From Chitinophagales bacterium (lineage in GTDB: Bacteria > Bacteroidota > Bacteroidia > Chitinophagales > Saprospiraceae): a stretch of 37,515 nt of DNA. Numbering within the stretch: the first letter of the stretch is position 1; each line of letters starts with the position of its first letter. The stretch covers positions 1 through 37,515 of the forward strand of contig JAIXKS010000026.1 of assembly GCA_026928325.1 (NCBI GenBank), in the 5' to 3' direction. Under the pieces are notes generated by a model. It had not been told where the DNA came from and did not search any database. It saw only the letters and a program-made list of their open reading frames with translations. Shown here piece by piece: positions 12,106 through 22,590 of this stretch. The translations under genes and the position numbers were made by a program.

Positions 12106-12372
12106 ATGGCAATCAATCTACAGAAAGGTCAAAAAATTGACATTGGACTTACCAAAATGACTATCGGTTTGGGTTGGGATCCAAATGAAGGAACAGGACA
12201 AGATTTCGACTTAGACGCTTCGGCATTTATGATTGACGGAAATCGCTTAATTCCCTCGGAAAATTTCTTTGTGTTTTACGGGAATACAGATTCTCCTGAC
12301 GGAGCTTTACGACACACAGGTGATGACCCGACATATAATAAAACATATTACTTAATTTTTAAATATAAATAA
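12106..12372 (+). pseudogene. TerD-family tellurium-resistance-type protein, truncated
   Basis: 88 aa instead of the usual ~190. The N-terminal half is a clear TerD domain: INLQKGQKIDIGL, GLGWDPNEG, DFDLDASAF (calcium ligands), FFVFYGNTDSPDGALRHTGD. After TGDDPT at residue 76 the family sequence stops abruptly and is replaced by YNKTYYLIFKYK before the stop. The second half of the domain, with its other calcium ligands, is missing, so the product is probably inactive. The next relic starts 4 bp after the stop. The break points to a deletion or recombination near 12333. A short expressed half-domain cannot be excluded. Confidence 0.8.
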
Positions 12373-13018: not shown

Positions 13019-13420
13019 ATGAAAACACAATTTTATTTTTTAGCATTTTTTATTTGTACAACATGTCTTTTTTCATGCGAAAAAGATGACATTAGAGATT
13101 CTTATGTTGGTACTTATGTTGGAACGGAAACATACACAAACAACGGAAGAGTTTATACACGAGACACAAGTATTACAGTTACGAAATCATCGAATAATGA
13201 GAGTTCGATTATTATTTCTGCAAGTTTTTTTAAAATAGCACCCGATGCTGTTACGGTTGAGGTAAGGAACGGTAAGTTTTCTGCGGCTTTTACTTCATTG
13301 TTTGACAGCGCTACACGTACTGTAAATATAACAAATGGTTTGTTTAGTGGTCAGAAAATTTCCTATTCATATTCAGCTGATGGATATGTTACAACAAGTG
13401 TCAGTGCTACAAAGCTATAA
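13019..13420 (+). CDS. small lipoprotein with surface-export signal
   Basis: A 133-aa predicted lipoprotein of unknown function. The signal peptide ends in LFSC (Cys20), followed by E-K-D-D. A lysine plus two acidic residues right after the lipidated cysteine is the known Bacteroidota signal for transfer to the cell surface. The mature part is beta-rich: YVGTYVGTETYTNN, ITVTKSSNNESSIIIS, VTVEVRNGKFSAAF, KISYSYSADGYVTTSVSATKL, like small lipocalin-type beta proteins of this phylum. It is followed by a very strong terminator, so it is a single-gene unit separate from the operon at 13546. Confidence 0.75.
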   Translation: MKTQFYFLAFFICTTCLFSCEKDDIRDSYVGTYVGTETYTNNGRVYTRDTSITVTKSSNNESSIIISASFFKIAPDAVTVEVRNGKFSAAFTSLFDSATRTVNITNGLFSGQKISYSYSADGYVTTSVSATKL

Positions 13421-13430
13421 GTTGAATAAT

Positions 13431-13486
13431 ACATTAACCTCACCCTCTCATTCCAGAAACGAGAGGGTGAGGTTAATGTTGTTTTT
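13431..13486 (+). terminator. strong rho-independent terminator
   Basis: A perfect 19-bp stem, 13431-13449 with 13461-13479 (core AACCTCACCCTCTC / GAGAGGGTGAGGTT), has an 11-nt loop and a T tract at 13482-13486. It starts 11 nt after the lipoprotein stop and isolates the next operon from read-through. Confidence 0.92.
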
Positions 13487-13545
13487 ATAATCAAAGGTAG
13501 TAGCCACAACAAAACATAACACTAAATTAAAATGCCGTACCTATC

Positions 13546-14277
13546 ATGAATAAATTCATACTCGTAATAATTTTTTTGGCAATTATGACAATGAGTTTTG
13601 CACAAAATGAGGATTTTGTTAATTGTCCATACGACTTTCAGGTAAAACCTTATGATGTACACAATAGTTTTCAAAGCTTGAATTCTAATAACATTTATGT
13701 TGCATTTCCATACAAATCCTATTTAGATTCAGCAAGTTGGTGGAGTTTTAAAACTATACAATCAACGTTTTCAGAATTAGAAAACATAAGAAAAATTGAT
13801 CACGAGACAGTAAATATTGTCTTACGGAATTGTTTAGTGGATTCACTTTTGTCCAAATGGAATTACAACAATATTGATTCATTGGAATTGTTGCTAATTA
13901 TACTTGAAAAATACCAAAACTATGCTGAAACTAATCCAGTATTATCCGATTTTTTTTACGAAGTTGCAGATAATTATGGAGTATTTGTTGCTAAAAACTT
14001 AACAGAATTAGCAGAAAACAACAAAAATCTAAAATCTACTTTCAAATTCAATTATGTAAGACAACACAGTAAGTGCTTAACGTATCCTCCAAATATTGGT
14101 CTTAGTAATTTGGAAAAAGTAATATTAAACATATCTCAAGGAAATTTCTCGTATTTGTGGGGTAGATTTTGGAATGGAACATCTTTCATTTTCAAATCTC
14201 TTATTGCTTTGCCTATGCTTTTGGTACTAATATTTTTTATCTATGGCTTTATTCTCATTATTCAAAAACATTTTTAA
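13546..14277 (+). CDS. exported protein of unknown function with C-terminal membrane helix
   Basis: A 243-aa protein that I do not recognise. It has a signal peptide (MNKFILVIIFLAIMTMSFAQ, cleavage after Ala-Gln or just before). A mostly helical, Asn-rich periplasmic part at about 21-208 includes ELLLIILEKYQNYAETNP and DFFYEVADNYGVFVAKNL. A single transmembrane helix at about 214-237 leaves a tiny tail. The topology places the body outside the cytoplasmic membrane, anchored at its C-terminus. It is the first gene of the exported-protein run; the next start lies 10 nt after its stop. A role as membrane platform or assembly factor is only a guess. Confidence 0.7.
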   Translation: MNKFILVIIFLAIMTMSFAQNEDFVNCPYDFQVKPYDVHNSFQSLNSNNIYVAFPYKSYLDSASWWSFKTIQSTFSELENIRKIDHETVNIVLRNCLVDSLLSKWNYNNIDSLELLLIILEKYQNYAETNPVLSDFFYEVADNYGVFVAKNLTELAENNKNLKSTFKFNYVRQHSKCLTYPPNIGLSNLEKVILNISQGNFSYLWGRFWNGTSFIFKSLIALPMLLVLIFFIYGFILIIQKHF

Positions 14278-14287
14278 TCTAAAAGAA

Positions 14288-15169
14288 ATGAAAAAATTAA
14301 GTTTTATTATTTTAACAGTAATCACGACATTATGTTCGTTTGTTCTTTTTTCTAATTATGACCCTAAATTTGTGGAAATCTCCAGTGTAAGTGATGGCGG
14401 ATACACCTATAACGTTGTTTATATGAATCGTGGAGGCAGTAAAAACCGTATCAAAGCAAAATACTTTGCTTCCAAGTCCAATGGGACTACAGTGCCGATT
14501 AGATATAATAGCTGGTCTCAAAATAAAAATATGATTGTTGTTTCAAGTGCTGGTTATATGGATAATTGCTTTGACCAATCGGCATCGCCTGTTGGTTTAA
14601 CAATTGATAATGGTATAGTTGTAAATAGAAATTTAGCCACGTTTGACGGATTGTTAATTGTATATGCTACGGGTGGTATTGTTGCTACTGACTTAAGAAA
14701 GGGCGATTTAACATTACAAGGAAGTGGAATTACACCAGGAAGAAAATTCAATATTCGAAATAGTTGGACAGATAGGAACGATTTTATAAAATGGGCACAA
14801 GAACAGGAAGCTACGGTTTTTCAAACTCATTTGCTAATTTACAAAGACCAATTAGCTATAGGAAAGAATGCACCCTCAGATCCAAGAGAGCGCCGATTTC
14901 TAGCAGTGGGAAAAGATAAAATATCAGGAGATCTTTGTCACGTTGTTGTCAATCTACCTGAATATACTTCCTTATATAATGGAGCATTCCGAACGAAAAA
15001 ATTTCTAAATGATACTGGTAACATGGAAATTACATTTATGATAAACCTCGACACAGGTTGTCAAGATGTGTGTACTTTATATAATAAGGATGCTTCTATT
15101 AATACTTTGATTAAAGGGCAATCCCTATTAGGAAATGCCGTCAATTTATTAGCCTACTACTACGAATGA
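14288..15169 (+). CDS. phosphodiester glycosidase-like protein (NAGPA/DUF2233 type), divergent
   Basis: A 293-aa exported protein. The ATG at 14288 gives a clean signal peptide (MKKLSFIILTVITTLCSFVLF); the longer frame from 14243 overlaps the previous gene. Landmarks of the NAGPA-type domain can be traced in order: SAGYMDN at 87-93 (for NAGFF), PVGLTIDNG at 101-109, RFLAVGKD at 203-210 (for the R-x-x-G segment), and INLDTGCQD at 252-260 (for LDGGxS). Domain members cleave sugar-phosphodiester bonds. Several positions here are replaced (NAG to SAG, DGG to DTG), so activity is uncertain. The stop overlaps the next start by 4 nt (ATGA), indicating coupled translation. Confidence 0.6.
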   Translation: MKKLSFIILTVITTLCSFVLFSNYDPKFVEISSVSDGGYTYNVVYMNRGGSKNRIKAKYFASKSNGTTVPIRYNSWSQNKNMIVVSSAGYMDNCFDQSASPVGLTIDNGIVVNRNLATFDGLLIVYATGGIVATDLRKGDLTLQGSGITPGRKFNIRNSWTDRNDFIKWAQEQEATVFQTHLLIYKDQLAIGKNAPSDPRERRFLAVGKDKISGDLCHVVVNLPEYTSLYNGAFRTKKFLNDTGNMEITFMINLDTGCQDVCTLYNKDASINTLIKGQSLLGNAVNLLAYYYE

Positions 15170-16416
15170 AAATGAATTTTAAAATATACATAACTACATT
15201 CATTTGCTTTCTAATATTTTGGGGAAATATATACTCTCAAAAATTGGTAGCCTATTATCCTTTTGACAATGAAAGTGCAGAGGACATCAGCAGCAATAAA
15301 AACAATGGGAAATTAATTGGAAGCGTGACAAGTTACAATGACAGGTTTGGCAACCCTTGTGGTGCATTGTATTTCAATGGTAAAAATAGTTGTATTGAAG
15401 TGCCGAACTCAAAATCGTTAGAATCTATCACAGATTATATGTCGGTATCTGTTTGGTTTTATATTGATAAAACGAGTTACAATAATGTCATGCGAGATGT
15501 TTCTATTATCTGTAAAGCAGACAATTCAGACGAAACTGAAAGCAGCCCTCAATATCGGGTACAAATCTTACAAATGGCTAAACAAAGTGTAATTTCAATA
15601 AACACAGAATTTACAAGAAATGATACTGATTTTTTGAATCACTCTATTGAGTTTGATAAATGGAATTTTGTTTGTGTTACTTATAATGGTAACGAAGTGA
15701 AGATGTATTTGAATGGAAAGATTGTCTGGAGTAATCCATACATCAAGTCATTTATCAAAAACAATTCATCATTATTTATCGGTAAGGATCCTCCGGGAGG
15801 AATGGAATACTTTCGAGGTGCATTTGACGATTTAAAAATATATAATGGTGTACTTAGTCCTCAACAAATTACAACTATGTATAATGACAAGTCAAACAAT
15901 GTTGTATGTGAAGATAGTTATTTGCCGTCTCCTGCACAAACTTCTACAACATCAAATGTAACAAAAACAGTAAAATCCAAAGTAGATAGTATTAAGATAA
16001 TATCCACCTCAACTACTCACAAAGCAGGAAATGATACATTGAATTATCAATACGAACTGTCTTTCAATTCCTGCACACTTACTGCAATTATGTATGATGA
16101 TGCAGAAGAAGATAACGACACAATATCAGTTTACTTTAATGGTAAAATAATTGTGGACTACCAAATGATATATCGCAAAAAAAACAAACCAATTGTAAAA
16201 CTTCTTGAATTGAATTCTGGGTCGGAAAACATACTTGCCTCAAAAGCATGGAATAATGGGAAAATACCGCCAAACACACTGAAAATTGAGTTTTATGAGG
16301 GTGATTGGACACAGAATTTAAATAAACTGAAATACAAAAAACCTATAATAGAAAAGGTAATTCATTCTAAACCTGGTTTAGCAGGAGCTATTAAATTAAA
16401 ATGTAAAGAAATATGA
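15166..16416 (+). CDS. LamG-domain exported protein
   Basis: A 416-aa protein. Signal peptide residues 1-25 (cleavage near IYSQ), then a LamG/concanavalin-like jelly roll at about 26-232: LVAYYPFDNESAEDISSNKN, ALYFNGKNSCIEVPNS, MSVSVWFYID, NFVCVTYNGNEVKMYLNGK, FRGAFDDLKIYNGVLS. A Thr/Ser-rich linker follows. A C-terminal beta domain at about 285-375 (ISVYFNGKIIVDYQ, NNGKIPPNTLKIEFYEGD) recurs in Bacteroidota surface proteins. LamG domains usually bind glycans or other ligands; no catalytic residues are apparent. The gene overlaps its neighbours by 4 nt on each side (ATGA), so it is made together with the two NAGPA-like proteins. Confidence 0.82.
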   Translation: MKMNFKIYITTFICFLIFWGNIYSQKLVAYYPFDNESAEDISSNKNNGKLIGSVTSYNDRFGNPCGALYFNGKNSCIEVPNSKSLESITDYMSVSVWFYIDKTSYNNVMRDVSIICKADNSDETESSPQYRVQILQMAKQSVISINTEFTRNDTDFLNHSIEFDKWNFVCVTYNGNEVKMYLNGKIVWSNPYIKSFIKNNSSLFIGKDPPGGMEYFRGAFDDLKIYNGVLSPQQITTMYNDKSNNVVCEDSYLPSPAQTSTTSNVTKTVKSKVDSIKIISTSTTHKAGNDTLNYQYELSFNSCTLTAIMYDDAEEDNDTISVYFNGKIIVDYQMIYRKKNKPIVKLLELNSGSENILASKAWNNGKIPPNTLKIEFYEGDWTQNLNKLKYKKPIIEKVIHSKPGLAGAIKLKCKEI

Positions 16417-17564
16417 GAACCGCAAAATTTATGAATATTTTTAGTTTGTTGACATTGTCATGTATGTTTTTATCAAACGTTGAAATTCTGGAACAAGAAG
16501 TTACCCAATCGCAAATTGATTTGACTAAATATAATACTATTTCAAGGACAATAGATTCAATATACAATTTGATTGAATGTGACGAACAAAAGATTCATAC
16601 ATATAATAATGAAATAATATCTTTAGAAAATGAAAAAATAAAAATACAAGAAAAATGTAAATCACTTAATAGAGATACTTCAACTTGTTCAATATCTTTC
16701 AATTGTGATACTCTAAGTCAATCATTGAAACGAATTGACAAAAAAATAAAAGACAATTCTTTAAAAATTTCCAATAGCGAACAATCTATTCAAGCGCATC
16801 AAGAGAAAATCAATATTCAAAAAAAACAACTTCAAGATGCAAGCAAATCTATAGTTTCATCAATTAAAAAACATAATGGAAGCCTTAAACTTAAGTTTAA
16901 AGGAATTGACTACCATGTTTTTATTGCCAATACAGACTGTAATGAAATACAAATGCACTGGCTAAATAATAATAAAAAAAGATTTGTCAATATTGGAAAT
17001 TTACTCAATTATTTAAAGAAAAAGAATACAACACCACTAATGATTACTAATGCAGGAATGTACACACCTGAACTAAAACCTCTAGGGTTGTATATTGAAC
17101 AATATGAGCTTCGACCTCTTGATTTGAAATCGCCAAAAACTGATGGTAATTTTTATCTTAAACCTAATGGTGTTTACTATATTGATACATTTGGTGTATC
17201 TCACATCAAAACAACAGAGGAATTTCAAATAGAGTATGATGTTAAGAAAATGAACTATGCAACACAGTCCGGACCTATGTTACTAATAAATGATAAAATT
17301 CATTCATCTTTTAAAGAACGTTCTTTAAATAAAAAAATAAGAAGCGGTGTAGGAATAATTGATGACAAACGTACTGTTTTTGCCATTTCACTGGGAGAGG
17401 TAAACTTTTATGATTTTGCACTTCTATTCAAAGATATTTTTGGTTGTAATGATGCACTGTATTTAGACGGAGCAATTTCACAAATGTATTTGAACGATAT
17501 AGATCCTAATGAATTAGGTGGACAGTTTGGTGCTCTTATTTCTGTAATTGAAAAAAACAAATAA
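16413..17564 (+). CDS. coiled-coil plus phosphodiester glycosidase domain (NAGPA/DUF2233)
   Basis: A 383-aa protein. A hydrophobic export segment at about 7-21 is followed by a Lys/Glu/Asn-rich coiled coil at about 30-150 with three internal Cys (83, 92, 98). A NAGPA/DUF2233 domain occupies about 155-380: ITNAGMY at 211-217, PLGLYIEQ at 223-230, QSGPMLLINDK at 285-295, IRSGVGIIDD at 309-318, and LYLDGAISQMY at 349-359. These keep the NAG, R-x-G and LDG positions better than the upstream paralogue, so this copy is the likelier active hydrolase. The expected reaction is hydrolysis of a sugar-1-phosphodiester outside the cytoplasm. It overlaps the LamG gene by 4 nt. Confidence 0.82.
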   Translation: MRTAKFMNIFSLLTLSCMFLSNVEILEQEVTQSQIDLTKYNTISRTIDSIYNLIECDEQKIHTYNNEIISLENEKIKIQEKCKSLNRDTSTCSISFNCDTLSQSLKRIDKKIKDNSLKISNSEQSIQAHQEKINIQKKQLQDASKSIVSSIKKHNGSLKLKFKGIDYHVFIANTDCNEIQMHWLNNNKKRFVNIGNLLNYLKKKNTTPLMITNAGMYTPELKPLGLYIEQYELRPLDLKSPKTDGNFYLKPNGVYYIDTFGVSHIKTTEEFQIEYDVKKMNYATQSGPMLLINDKIHSSFKERSLNKKIRSGVGIIDDKRTVFAISLGEVNFYDFALLFKDIFGCNDALYLDGAISQMYLNDIDPNELGGQFGALISVIEKNK

Positions 17565-17583
17565 AAGAAATTACAAACAGACG

Positions 17584-18990
17584 ATGAAACTTAGATTTTT
17601 AATATTGCTTTTTTACTTTGGAATTTGTAATTTCGGTATGGCCCAAATGGGAGGATTCGGTAAATGGGAGATTTTGTATTCAGATGCTACTATAAAAGTT
17701 GAGATTTCCTTTCAAATCAAACCATGTAGTGGGATTGGAGAGAGTAACAATAAAAGCAAATATAGGTATAGAGTTACTGGCTTCCCAAAAAGCACATATA
17801 ATAATTATATCAATTGGAAAATGGACTATATTGATTGTAATGGTAATTTATACTATAGAAACAATGCCTTAAATATTGGAAGTAATAACGTTCATTTTAA
17901 ATCAAATGTTACTGATTTCATTGTTTACCCTGGAGATGAAGATTTTACTTGTAAGTCGTTAGAAAAAGCTCATTACGATGTTGTGCTTTCATCTTCAAAA
18001 TCTTATGGAGGAGGAATAAAAAATTCTCAATTAAGAAAAGCAACAACATCTGAAATAACAGATATATGGAATGGAAAATATGGGGATAATCCAGGTCGAC
18101 GTGACAAGTTAATAGCAAAAGGCATTGACCCAGATGATGTACAAAAGCGTATTAATTCAGGAGAAGGGAAACCAGCAAATGCTACGAATGTTGTTAAAAC
18201 ATTATCCGTTTATCCACAAGATTTAATTTTAGAAGTTAATAGTAGTCGAAAATATATTTATGTTACAATAGATGGGAATTCTGACTATGAAATTAAATTC
18301 CTTCCCATTTGGTGTAAGGTAGGAGTGAAAAATAAAGATAATTTTACAATTTTATATGAGACGAACAACTCTCAATTTAAACGTACTGATTGGTTTATAG
18401 TAAAGGCAGGTGAAAAGGAAGTGAGGATTGGAGTAACTCAAGGTGGCAAACCTCAAGCAAGCCCAACAACTATAGCAACAACAACCACATCATCATCATC
18501 AAAAACTTATAACAAGCTTACACAAAGTAATTGCTTTAATTGCCCTAAGATAAAGAATCAGGTAGGGATCTCTTTTTCGTATTTTGAAGACAGTGACATA
18601 CGAAATGGAAAACAGATAGGTCTAAATTATGAAACCTTATTTAAATATGGATTTGGTGTTAGGACAGGCTTATTGGTGGATTTTTATAATAATAAGGAAA
18701 ACGTTGGATTCTTGTTACCACTTCATTTAGAATATAGGCTAAACTTTTCGAAGAGTTTTAATGTATTTGGTTTTTATGGTGCAAGTTTAAATATGATTGG
18801 AAAATCAAATAGATATTCTCTACCATTATTGACTTCAGATTATGGTGCTGGAATACAAATAAATCATTTACAACTAATAATTTGTAATAATAAACAATTA
18901 ATAAACCATACAAGGAAACATAAGTCTGGATTTGAACTTAAACCATATAAAAAAATCAATTTTACTTTATCTTTAATGTTTCCTCTATGA
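17584..18990 (+). CDS. exported fusion: Cpl-7 domain, BACON-like domain, outer-membrane barrel
   Basis: A 468-aa protein starting at the ATG MKLRFL with a signal peptide to about residue 21 (MAQ); a TTG frame from 17548 overlaps the previous gene. Parts in order: a beta-rich N-domain (25-140) with Cys pairs; a Cpl-7/CW_7-type repeat at about 154-193 (IWNGKYGDNPGRR, then GIDPDDVQKRIN); a BACON-like beta sandwich at about 206-287 (LSVYPQDLILEV, YIYVTIDG, WFIVKAGEKEVRIGVTQ); a Thr/Ser linker; and a porin-like barrel at about 326-468. Cpl-7 repeats bind peptidoglycan muropeptides in phage lysins, and BACON domains are thought to bind glycan or mucin. The combination would tie wall, surface and outer membrane together. 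Last gene of the run. Confidence 0.72.
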   Translation: MKLRFLILLFYFGICNFGMAQMGGFGKWEILYSDATIKVEISFQIKPCSGIGESNNKSKYRYRVTGFPKSTYNNYINWKMDYIDCNGNLYYRNNALNIGSNNVHFKSNVTDFIVYPGDEDFTCKSLEKAHYDVVLSSSKSYGGGIKNSQLRKATTSEITDIWNGKYGDNPGRRDKLIAKGIDPDDVQKRINSGEGKPANATNVVKTLSVYPQDLILEVNSSRKYIYVTIDGNSDYEIKFLPIWCKVGVKNKDNFTILYETNNSQFKRTDWFIVKAGEKEVRIGVTQGGKPQASPTTIATTTTSSSSKTYNKLTQSNCFNCPKIKNQVGISFSYFEDSDIRNGKQIGLNYETLFKYGFGVRTGLLVDFYNNKENVGFLLPLHLEYRLNFSKSFNVFGFYGASLNMIGKSNRYSLPLLTSDYGAGIQINHLQLIICNNKQLINHTRKHKSGFELKPYKKINFTLSLMFPL

Positions 18991-19075: not shown

Positions 19076-19303
19076 ATGAATATTTTAACCAAACTAACTC
19101 TATTTATCTCATTAATAACTTTAACATCATTTTGCAAAACAGAAGTATCAAAAGATGTTTATATTTGTGGAGAAAATGGTGCAAAACGATATCATTATTC
19201 CAAAAACTGTCAAGGTTTATCAAATTGTAAAAAGGGGAAATTTAAGGTGTCATTATCAGATGCTAAATCAAAAGGTCTTACACTTTGTGGCTGGGAAGAT
19301 TAA
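19076..19303 (+). CDS. small exported Cys-rich protein
   Basis: 75 aa. A hydrophobic N-terminus (NILTKLTLFISLITLTSF) ends at Cys20, but Phe before the Cys makes it a poor lipobox. The mature part carries VYICGENGAKRYHYSKNCQG, then LSNCKKG and LTLCGWED, a spacing of Cys with a YH...C element seen in many small Bacteroidota proteins and reminiscent of Ada-type or other zinc-binding knots. Metal binding is therefore a reasonable inference. It stands 85 nt after the operon end and may have its own promoter. Function unknown. Confidence 0.65.
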   Translation: MNILTKLTLFISLITLTSFCKTEVSKDVYICGENGAKRYHYSKNCQGLSNCKKGKFKVSLSDAKSKGLTLCGWED

Positions 19304-21528: not shown

Positions 21529-21560
21529 TTTGTATTTCGCACCATATTGATCTATATTTG
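21529..21560 (+). promoter_or_regulatory. promoter of the Rpn-family gene
   Basis: TTTG (21529-21532), 20-nt spacer, TATATTTG (21553-21560): an exact Bacteroidota promoter. The start would fall near 21567, 19 nt before the ATG at 21586, which excludes the longer frame from 21547. Confidence 0.75.
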
Positions 21561-21585
21561 TGCTGTAGCAATTCTGAAATTGAGA

Positions 21586-22590
21586 ATGGGCGAAGATATC
21601 AATAATATACATGACAAATTTGTACGAGCTACCTTTATGGATACTGAACGTGCTGCTGCTTTTTTTGAGCAAATGTTGCCCGTTGAACTTTTGAATGTGC
21701 TTTCTATTGAGACCATTGAAATTATACAAGAGTCCTACATAACAGAAGAACTCAAGGAGTATTTTTCTGATATTGTATATAGCATCAAACTCAAGGAAAG
21801 TATTGAGGAAGACCTTGAAGTTGCCTTGCTTTTTGAGCACAAATCTTATCCGGATAAGAATGTTGCCATTCAGGTTGGGTTATATATGTTTTCTCATTGG
21901 ATGAAATGTATAAGGGAAAAGAAAAAGCTGAAACCGGTAATTCCGATTGTTTATTATCAGGGAGAGAAGGCTTGGAAAGTTCCTGAGATTCACGAGCGAT
22001 TTAGCGAGTATCCCGCGTCAATATTACAATATGTTCCACAATTGAAACATCTTTTCATAACACTAAATACACTATCGAATGAAGATGTTTTTAAGATACA
22101 GAATGGGCTTATGGCTGTGTCAATCATTGCACAAAAAAGAAGATTTGACCCGATTAAATTAATTGAAGATTTTCGGAGGATTTTTGAACTTTTCCCTGAC
22201 AATGTTCAGGATAGAAACTTTTTTGAAACGATTTTCGTTTATATTTTTGAAGTTTCAGATTTAAAAGAGCATGATTTAAAAAATGCAATAGAATTAATAC
22301 CTAAACCATTAAATCAAGAAATTATGACAACATATCAAAGAATAGTAGAAAGAAGTAAGAAAGAGGGTATTGAACAGGGTATTGAACAGGGTTTTGAGCA
22401 AGGTATTGAACGTGGTATCGAACGAGGAATCGAACAAGGAATCGAACAAGGAATCGAACAAAAAGCAATTCAAGTCATTCTCACGGGTCATGAAAATGGA
22501 ATAAGTATTGAAATGTTATCCAATATTACCAATAAGTCTGTAGAAGAAGTTAAGAAGATACTTATAGATAATGGTAGAATTAAAGATTGA
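21586..22590 (+). CDS. Rpn-family recombination-promoting nuclease / putative transposase (PD-(D/E)XK)
   Basis: A 334-aa protein of the Rpn (Transposase_31-like) group. The start HDKFVRATFMDTERAAAFF is typical. The nuclease core shows D62 (YFSDIVYS), then E84-H-K86 (LLFEHKSYPD), the D...ExK metal site, followed by VAIQVGLYMFSHW and PVIPIVYYQGEKAW. A C-terminal region has eight four-residue repeats of the type GIEQ (residues 261-292) and ends in a small helix-turn-helix-like segment (GISIEMLSNITNKSVEEV). Known Rpn proteins nick or cut DNA and raise recombination. The gene follows an array of palindromic repeats and has its own promoter. Confidence 0.92.
   Translation: MGEDINNIHDKFVRATFMDTERAAAFFEQMLPVELLNVLSIETIEIIQESYITEELKEYFSDIVYSIKLKESIEEDLEVALLFEHKSYPDKNVAIQVGLYMFSHWMKCIREKKKLKPVIPIVYYQGEKAWKVPEIHERFSEYPASILQYVPQLKHLFITLNTLSNEDVFKIQNGLMAVSIIAQKRRFDPIKLIEDFRRIFELFPDNVQDRNFFETIFVYIFEVSDLKEHDLKNAIELIPKPLNQEIMTTYQRIVERSKKEGIEQGIEQGFEQGIERGIERGIEQGIEQGIEQKAIQVILTGHENGISIEMLSNITNKSVEEVKKILIDNGRIKD
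22366..22461 (+). repeat. 12-bp in-frame tandem repeat within the rpn gene
   Basis: Eight consecutive units of GGT/A-ATT/C-GAA-CAG/A or close variants, encoding GIEQ or GIER/GFEQ. The last three units are identical at the DNA level, and the first two also. Units are multiples of three, so gain or loss changes linker length without a frameshift. Confidence 0.9.

Follow-up and report, generated by a model that had tools for sequence, protein, structure and literature searches.

A patchily distributed and apparently undescribed cell-envelope gene cluster encoding two NAGPA-fold proteins on a Saprospiraceae contig

Bacterial phosphodiester glycosidases are common in genomes and poorly understood. 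Their fold is that of NAGPA, the uncovering enzyme, and of bacterial DUF2233 (PF09992; 3ohg BACOVA_00430, 6pku, and 6u11). The chemistry of animal NAGPA is uncovering, which exposes mannose 6-phosphate (PMC12024695). In Bacillota, NAGPA occurs in single large Gram-positive surface proteins, together with a TelC enzyme and diversifying ligand-binding domains, and these proteins are read as conflict systems (PMC12419801). Cpl-7-type endolysins carry CW_7 repeats, which bind the muropeptide GMDP (PMC5705596). Here, we describe a five-gene operon (genes A to E) on contig JAIXKS010000026.1 of a Chitinophagales bacterium. The window is the whole stretch analyzed, 37,515 nucleotides in length. Two of the products, B and D, have a fold like that of NAGPA. 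The gene cluster is one copy of a cell-envelope system that is widespread, though patchy, and apparently undescribed. No paper on this gene set was found among the open-access papers searched, which is weak evidence of novelty because subscription journals fall mostly outside that scope.

The operon contains the following features.

13546-14277, forward strand, gene A (P0001, 243 aa)
14288-15169, forward strand, gene B (P0002, 293 aa), frame open from an upstream ATG at 14243
15166-16416, forward strand, gene C (P0003, 416 aa)
16413-17564, forward strand, gene D (P0004, 383 aa)
17040-17492, forward strand, NAGPA domain of D
17584-18990, forward strand, gene E (P0005, 468 aa), frame open from a TTG at 17548
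13431-13479, forward strand, terminator-like hairpin with a 19-bp stem, between the upstream gene (13019-13420) and the operon

Genes A and B are separated by a 10-nt gap and D and E by a 19-nt gap, and the B/C and C/D junctions are ATGA overlaps. The hairpin has a perfect 19-bp stem followed by a T-run. Its folding energy is -33.3 kcal/mol, whereas shuffled sequences average -11.2 (standard deviation, 2.6; z, -8.5), and none of 200 shuffles was equally stable. The ORF coordinates, the spacing (ATGA overlaps and gaps of at most 20 nt), and the 19-bp hairpin given in an earlier note on this DNA were all confirmed on the sequence. All five proteins have a hydrophobic export-type segment at the N-terminus by hydropathy, which supports the export signals proposed there.

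Genome contigs of 84,980 species were scanned with a B profile, and 54 loci were retrieved. Gene A is present at 47 of these, D at 42, C at 27, and E at 21. A, B, and D occur together at 40 loci, A to D at 27, and all five genes at 15. In the most frequent arrangement, E-A-B-C-D, a second D is often found as well. In the window, E comes last. Selection was by B, and near-duplicates are among the loci (L042-L044, L023/L037, L060/L061, and L053/L054), so they are not 54 independent events. The carriers are mostly Bacteroidota, e.g., Dokdonia, Adhaeribacter, Hymenobacter, Flammeovirga, Aureispira, and Roseivirga. Other carriers are bins named Thiotrichaceae, Thiomargarita, Campylobacteraceae, Verrucomicrobia, Chlorobi, Cyanobacteria, and Proteobacteria. 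Conserved synteny, the check proposed in the earlier note, was found across genera and, by bin labels, across phyla. The near-constant core of A and B, the second enzyme, and the swappable binding proteins make a defined unit for study.

Gene A is the near-constant partner of B, and the earlier reading made no use of it. It lies directly before B at 37 of the 54 loci and is fused to B at 10. In the window's family, 12 of 298 genomes have B and 14 of 296 have A (the draws differ by two genomes). All 12 B genomes contain A at the B locus. The A protein has an export-type N-terminus, a helical domain, and one C-terminal transmembrane-like segment. Among 41 unfused A proteins, hydropathy gave an N-terminal hydrophobic segment in 38 and exactly one later segment in 35. 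Among 12 proteins viewed individually, the later segment is C-terminal in 10. A hydrophobic stretch stands between the A and B halves in 3 of 10 A-B fusions, by hydropathy only. The helical nature of A is read from a confident model of a natural A-B fusion (L070), which contains a helical domain at residues ~22-204 and a NAGPA domain at 209-476. Pfam gave A a chance-level match and nothing credible. A and B define two protein families, the first without a credible Pfam match and the second mostly missed by Pfam.

Two genomes of the family contain A only. In one (G615), A matches with an E value of 3.9e-4, and no other family members were found nearby. The other (G601, from the window's genus) contains a 226-bp stretch (L125 6938-7163, G601:C80) that is 91% identical to window 13527-13752. 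It has unrelated sequence on either side and ends 84 bases from the contig end. It looks like a remnant of the cassette's first gene at another site, or possibly a contig-end artifact. In the other four sampled congeners, neither B nor a DNA match to the operon was found.

B is a divergent NAGPA-fold protein. The earlier note had let its reading stand or fall on a NAGPA-type fold for the 14288 product, and that fold was found. It is also present in the B half of the L070 fusion model. Pfam gave no match for the window's B. Of the 42 B members in the alignment, 8 match PF09992 at E<=0.01, with a best value of 1.5e-4, and the other 34 have no match. All 64 B rows, a set that contains fusions and second copies, have Q179 and R202. 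N253 is present in 63 rows and D255 in 62; G257, with one row gapped, is present in 63. R202 aligns with the R of HPR, and N253-L-D255-x-G257 aligns with the NLDGG of canonical NAGPA. As a reference, 12 canonical NAGPA proteins from the same bacteria all keep N101 (NGGFF), G169-P170, R193 (HPR), and D240 (LDGGGS). NGGYFD, R, and NLDGGGS are likewise present in two solved vertebrate enzymes.

D resembles NAGPA more closely. It matches PF09992 at 67.2 bits (cut-off, 25; E value, 2.6e-18), and a match at E<=0.01 was obtained for each of the 58 D proteins in the alignment. It carries N213, S286-G-P288, R310, and D352, which are the NGG/NAG, SGP, R, and LDG positions, and the canonical motifs appear in it as NAGM, QSGP, IRSGVG, and LDG. 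In the 58 aligned proteins, Q285, G287, P288, and R310 are invariant, N213 is present in 52, and D352 is present in 50. FQTHLL in B corresponds to TQSGPML in D, with an exact register that varies between alignments. The three landmark pairs that the earlier note saw in B and D, in the same order, are real. The claims of two divergent NAGPA-fold proteins and of a real operon are supported.

D also has coiled-coil-type matches at residues ~24-155, after the N-terminus and before the NAGPA domain. The window's D has an N-terminal hydrophobic segment and a lipobox-like site, the latter found in only 13 of 67 D proteins. PADLOC models of known anti-phage defense matched only the coiled-coil stretch of D, at E values of at least 7e-4, which does not place the operon among those systems. 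PF09992 matches 87 of 298 family genomes. Of the 12 family B genomes, 10 have a D-type match next to B; one of the others (G046) has it on another contig, and for the last (G139), with its short contig, none was found. The D-type domain is shared with stand-alone NAGPA genes of the same bacterial family, but five examples of these (L119-L123) have no homologue of A, B, C, or E within 13-14 kb around the gene. The operon differs from NAGPA of the PF09992 type in that B mostly has no Pfam match and has changed NGG and SGP motifs. It also differs in that B and D are part of a multigene, apparently membrane-tethered set with A, C, and E.

We consider it somewhat probable that the operon encodes an envelope-tethered two-enzyme complex for the hydrolysis of sugar-phosphodiester bonds in a glycan of the envelope or cell wall. 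In this reading, the assembly of a complex, its topology, the catalytic role of B, and the substrate are inferred, whereas computation shows the genes and their synteny, the pairing and fusion of A and B, the NAGPA fold of B, the conserved motif residues, and the hydrophobic segments. A would be an inner-membrane-anchored helical protein with a periplasmic domain that holds B. B would be a divergent NAGPA-fold enzyme, and D would be a more canonical one on a coiled-coil stalk. Their target may be a single polymer or a pair of related linkages. C, with its LamG domain, and E would be the variable part and would supply binding to glycan, peptidoglycan, or surface.

Several observations weigh against the two-enzyme complex. 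The Asn of NGG/NAG (position 87) is missing from all 64 B rows (Ser in 50, Thr in 8). The SGP motif has no counterpart in B, which has FQ[TS][HQ]L there (His in 48, Gln in 16). These losses mean that the reaction of B may differ or be lost. Among 53 runs (contiguous same-strand genes around B with gaps of <=300 nt, evaluated at all loci except L051), 6 lack A and 11 lack D, some of them at contig ends. One short contig, L124, shows two D genes and C but neither A nor B. A single-sequence search with E matched 0 of 149 other family genomes; a profile finds E-type genes in some. The membrane segments were called by a hydropathy heuristic. Other observations speak for the complex: the fold of B, the motif residues kept in B and D, the synteny, the fusion of A to B, and the hydrophobic segments of A. 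In addition, the 160 gaps between members have a median of 6 nt; 118 are <=20 nt, and 55 of these are overlaps, a number inflated by the use of the first start codon as the ORF start. Pairwise distances are also correlated for each of the ten pairs of families (r, 0.55-0.84), a level reached in 0 of 999 permutations. This fits joint inheritance, with a contribution from shared descent.

The loss of the NGG Asn and SGP motif would also suit a B that is a noncatalytic NAGPA-fold adaptor, with D as the only enzyme. We regard this as unlikely, since Q179 and R202 in 64 of 64 B rows and D255 in 62 of 64, across phyla, are typical of an active site in use. Because both motifs are gone, B was assigned to a divergent NAGPA-fold subfamily and not to NAGPA proper. 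From the alignment, its active site looks maintained but altered, and this new subfamily may work like NAGPA. Eight of the 10 fused A-B proteins have Gln at the [HQ] position of FQ[TS][HQ]L.

The remaining two genes encode the modules that vary. Their features are as follows.

15379-15870, forward strand, LamG domain of C (residues 72-235)
18070-18156, forward strand, single CW_7 (Cpl-7-like) repeat in E
18307-18441, forward strand, BACON-like segment of E (18.8 bits, below the cut-off of 25)
18538-18987, forward strand, outer-membrane barrel-like C-terminus of E (OMP_b-brl, 18.0 bits; cut-off, 28.7)

C is a secreted LamG protein with a conserved C-terminal stretch. It matches LamG PF13385 (Laminin_G_3) at 86.3 bits (cut-off, 27.6; E value, 3e-24), which confirms the LamG protein noted earlier. 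All 27 aligned C members contain LamG, 14 contain HYR, and 3 contain OmpA. The C-terminal third of C has a conserved D-x-x-x-E/D-D-G-D-x-I-S-...-N-G pattern without a Pfam name. The same pattern was seen by eye in two proteins at L056.

The N-terminal stretch of E, to residue ~150, is common to other E proteins. Its CW_7 repeat scored 23.4 bits in the whole protein and 28.6 bits for the stretch alone, which was chosen post hoc (cut-off, 25). BACON and OMP_b-brl were seen only when excised segments of E were scanned, and the BACON match is a resemblance, not a membership. The barrel-like segment can be aligned in part with the C-terminal region of the L033 E protein, and several E proteins end in barrel-like strands by eye. 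Among 25 E proteins scanned, Ig_7 is present in 16 and CW_7 in the window's E only, so the Cpl-7 repeat is not a feature of the system. The earlier call of a Cpl-7/BACON barrel is not supported in that form: E has a single CW_7-like repeat, which is no system feature, and BACON and barrel are both below the cut-off. E resembles the Cpl-7-type endolysins in its one CW_7-like repeat (PMC5705596), but Pfam gave it no lytic domain, and CW_7 is present in 0 of 24 aligned E relatives. The binding modules of E may be Ig_7 repeats in most relatives and CW_7/BACON-like segments here, with a barrel-like C-terminus. Since the domains of C and E differ among relatives, the recognition parts vary, and A and B, usually with D, persist.

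Processing of the producer's own glycan and attack on neighbors' walls are about equally likely. In the first case, the complex would uncover or trim a phosphodiester-linked sugar on its own capsule, lipopolysaccharide, or surface glycoprotein, which is possible but rather doubtful. A and, by its N-terminal segment, D look membrane tethered, which suggests action near the producer's envelope. The window's contig also encodes a glycosyltransferase and a polysaccharide-synthesis gene, outside the operon. Animal NAGPA is known to act by uncovering (PMC12024695). However, none of 12 B genomes has a Stealth-type phosphotransferase (PF11380), although other transferases could serve. One was found in a single genome of 100 from the family, a sample that includes 5 B genomes. 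No cluster of flanking genes is common to more than 8 of the 54 loci, with functions judged by eye.

Antagonism or predation is tentative to the same degree. The enzymes would attack wall or capsule polymers of neighbors (teichoic-acid-like), with E and C recognizing the target. The competitor's wall that the earlier note suggested as a target is thus possible. The spread is patchy, with B in 12 of 298 family genomes and 1 of 395 phylum-wide genomes. The latter is the window's own (small profile), so the system is rare. The B tree (54 rows) does not track families. In it, a group with a support of 95/83 unites the window's B with Dokdonia and two bins, one of Chlorobi and one of Bacteroidia, and the Saprospiraceae copies are scattered over several places. 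Bins may be contaminated and paralogues are present, so the tree suggests but does not prove transfer. B was not found in viral contigs or plasmids. The binding modules of C and E vary, and Aureispira, which is predatory, is among the carriers. Several phage entries that match the fold are named cell-wall hydrolases, muramidase, or CHAP proteins; other viral proteins that match it are named phosphodiester glycosidase, and some are from giant or insect viruses.

The muropeptide-binding CW_7 motif in E (PMC5705596) would also fit an attack on neighbors, but it is confined to the window's E among those scanned. The NAGPA-TelC proteins of Bacillota, read as conflict systems (PMC12419801), point the same way. 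They share NAGPA and diversifying ligand-binding domains with the operon, whereas the operon has separate genes, two NAGPA-fold proteins, and a helical membrane partner and occurs mostly in Bacteroidota. The five window proteins have no Pfam match to a TelC-type lipocone domain; the flanks of relatives were not searched with a TelC model. Against antagonism, no recurrent toxin or immunity gene was recognized in the flanks by eye (no profile search was made), and A seems anchored in the producer's membrane.

A wider reading is possible, though less likely than not. The operon would be an undescribed envelope system that has spread laterally through Bacteroidota and beyond. By bin labels, it would reach Pseudomonadota, Campylobacterota, Verrucomicrobiota, Chlorobiota, and Cyanobacteriota. 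B would work only with its helical partner A, on an undescribed phosphodiester-linked bacterial glycan, and interchangeable surface modules would choose the target. The candidate signature of the new B subfamily is F-Q-[TS]-[HQ]-L / R-R-x-L / N-L-D-x-G. Such a system would point to unrecognized phosphodiester glycan chemistry at Bacteroidota surfaces.

Scavenging of phosphorus or sugar from environmental phosphoglycans is quite improbable. NAGPA chemistry frees sugar and leaves a phosphomonoester, and most of the named carriers are bacteria that live free in water or soil, both of which would suit it. However, no steady transporter or phosphatase neighbor was seen by eye, and the sole transporter-like cluster covers 3 of the 54 loci.

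Some loci contain additional members. After the first B or the A-B fusion at L058, L060, L061, L062, and L065 comes a second B-type protein, which by eye has an N-terminal membrane segment. The runs at L058, L060, L061, and L065 contain no D-type gene, so the second B-type protein may replace D. L118 (G589:C129) contains a B gene, an A-B fusion, and four D-type NAGPA genes in ~10 kb, with an SH3-like protein (by eye) among them. Caspase-like genes were seen by eye near B or the A-B fusion at L056 and L066. Ser/Thr-kinase-like genes of one sequence cluster lie a few kilobases from the fused or single B at L060, L061, and L071 (by eye).

In the window, the GC content drops to ~29-30% across the second half of the operon. 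The TerD-like ORF at 12106-12372 (88 aa) matches positions 1-83 only of a 187-position profile and is a short or truncated TerD gene. Right after the operon, 19076-19303 encodes a 75-aa secreted or lipoprotein-like ORF with five cysteines and no Pfam match. A PF04754 gene (YhgA-like putative transposase) is located at 21547-22590, ~2.5 kb downstream of the operon.

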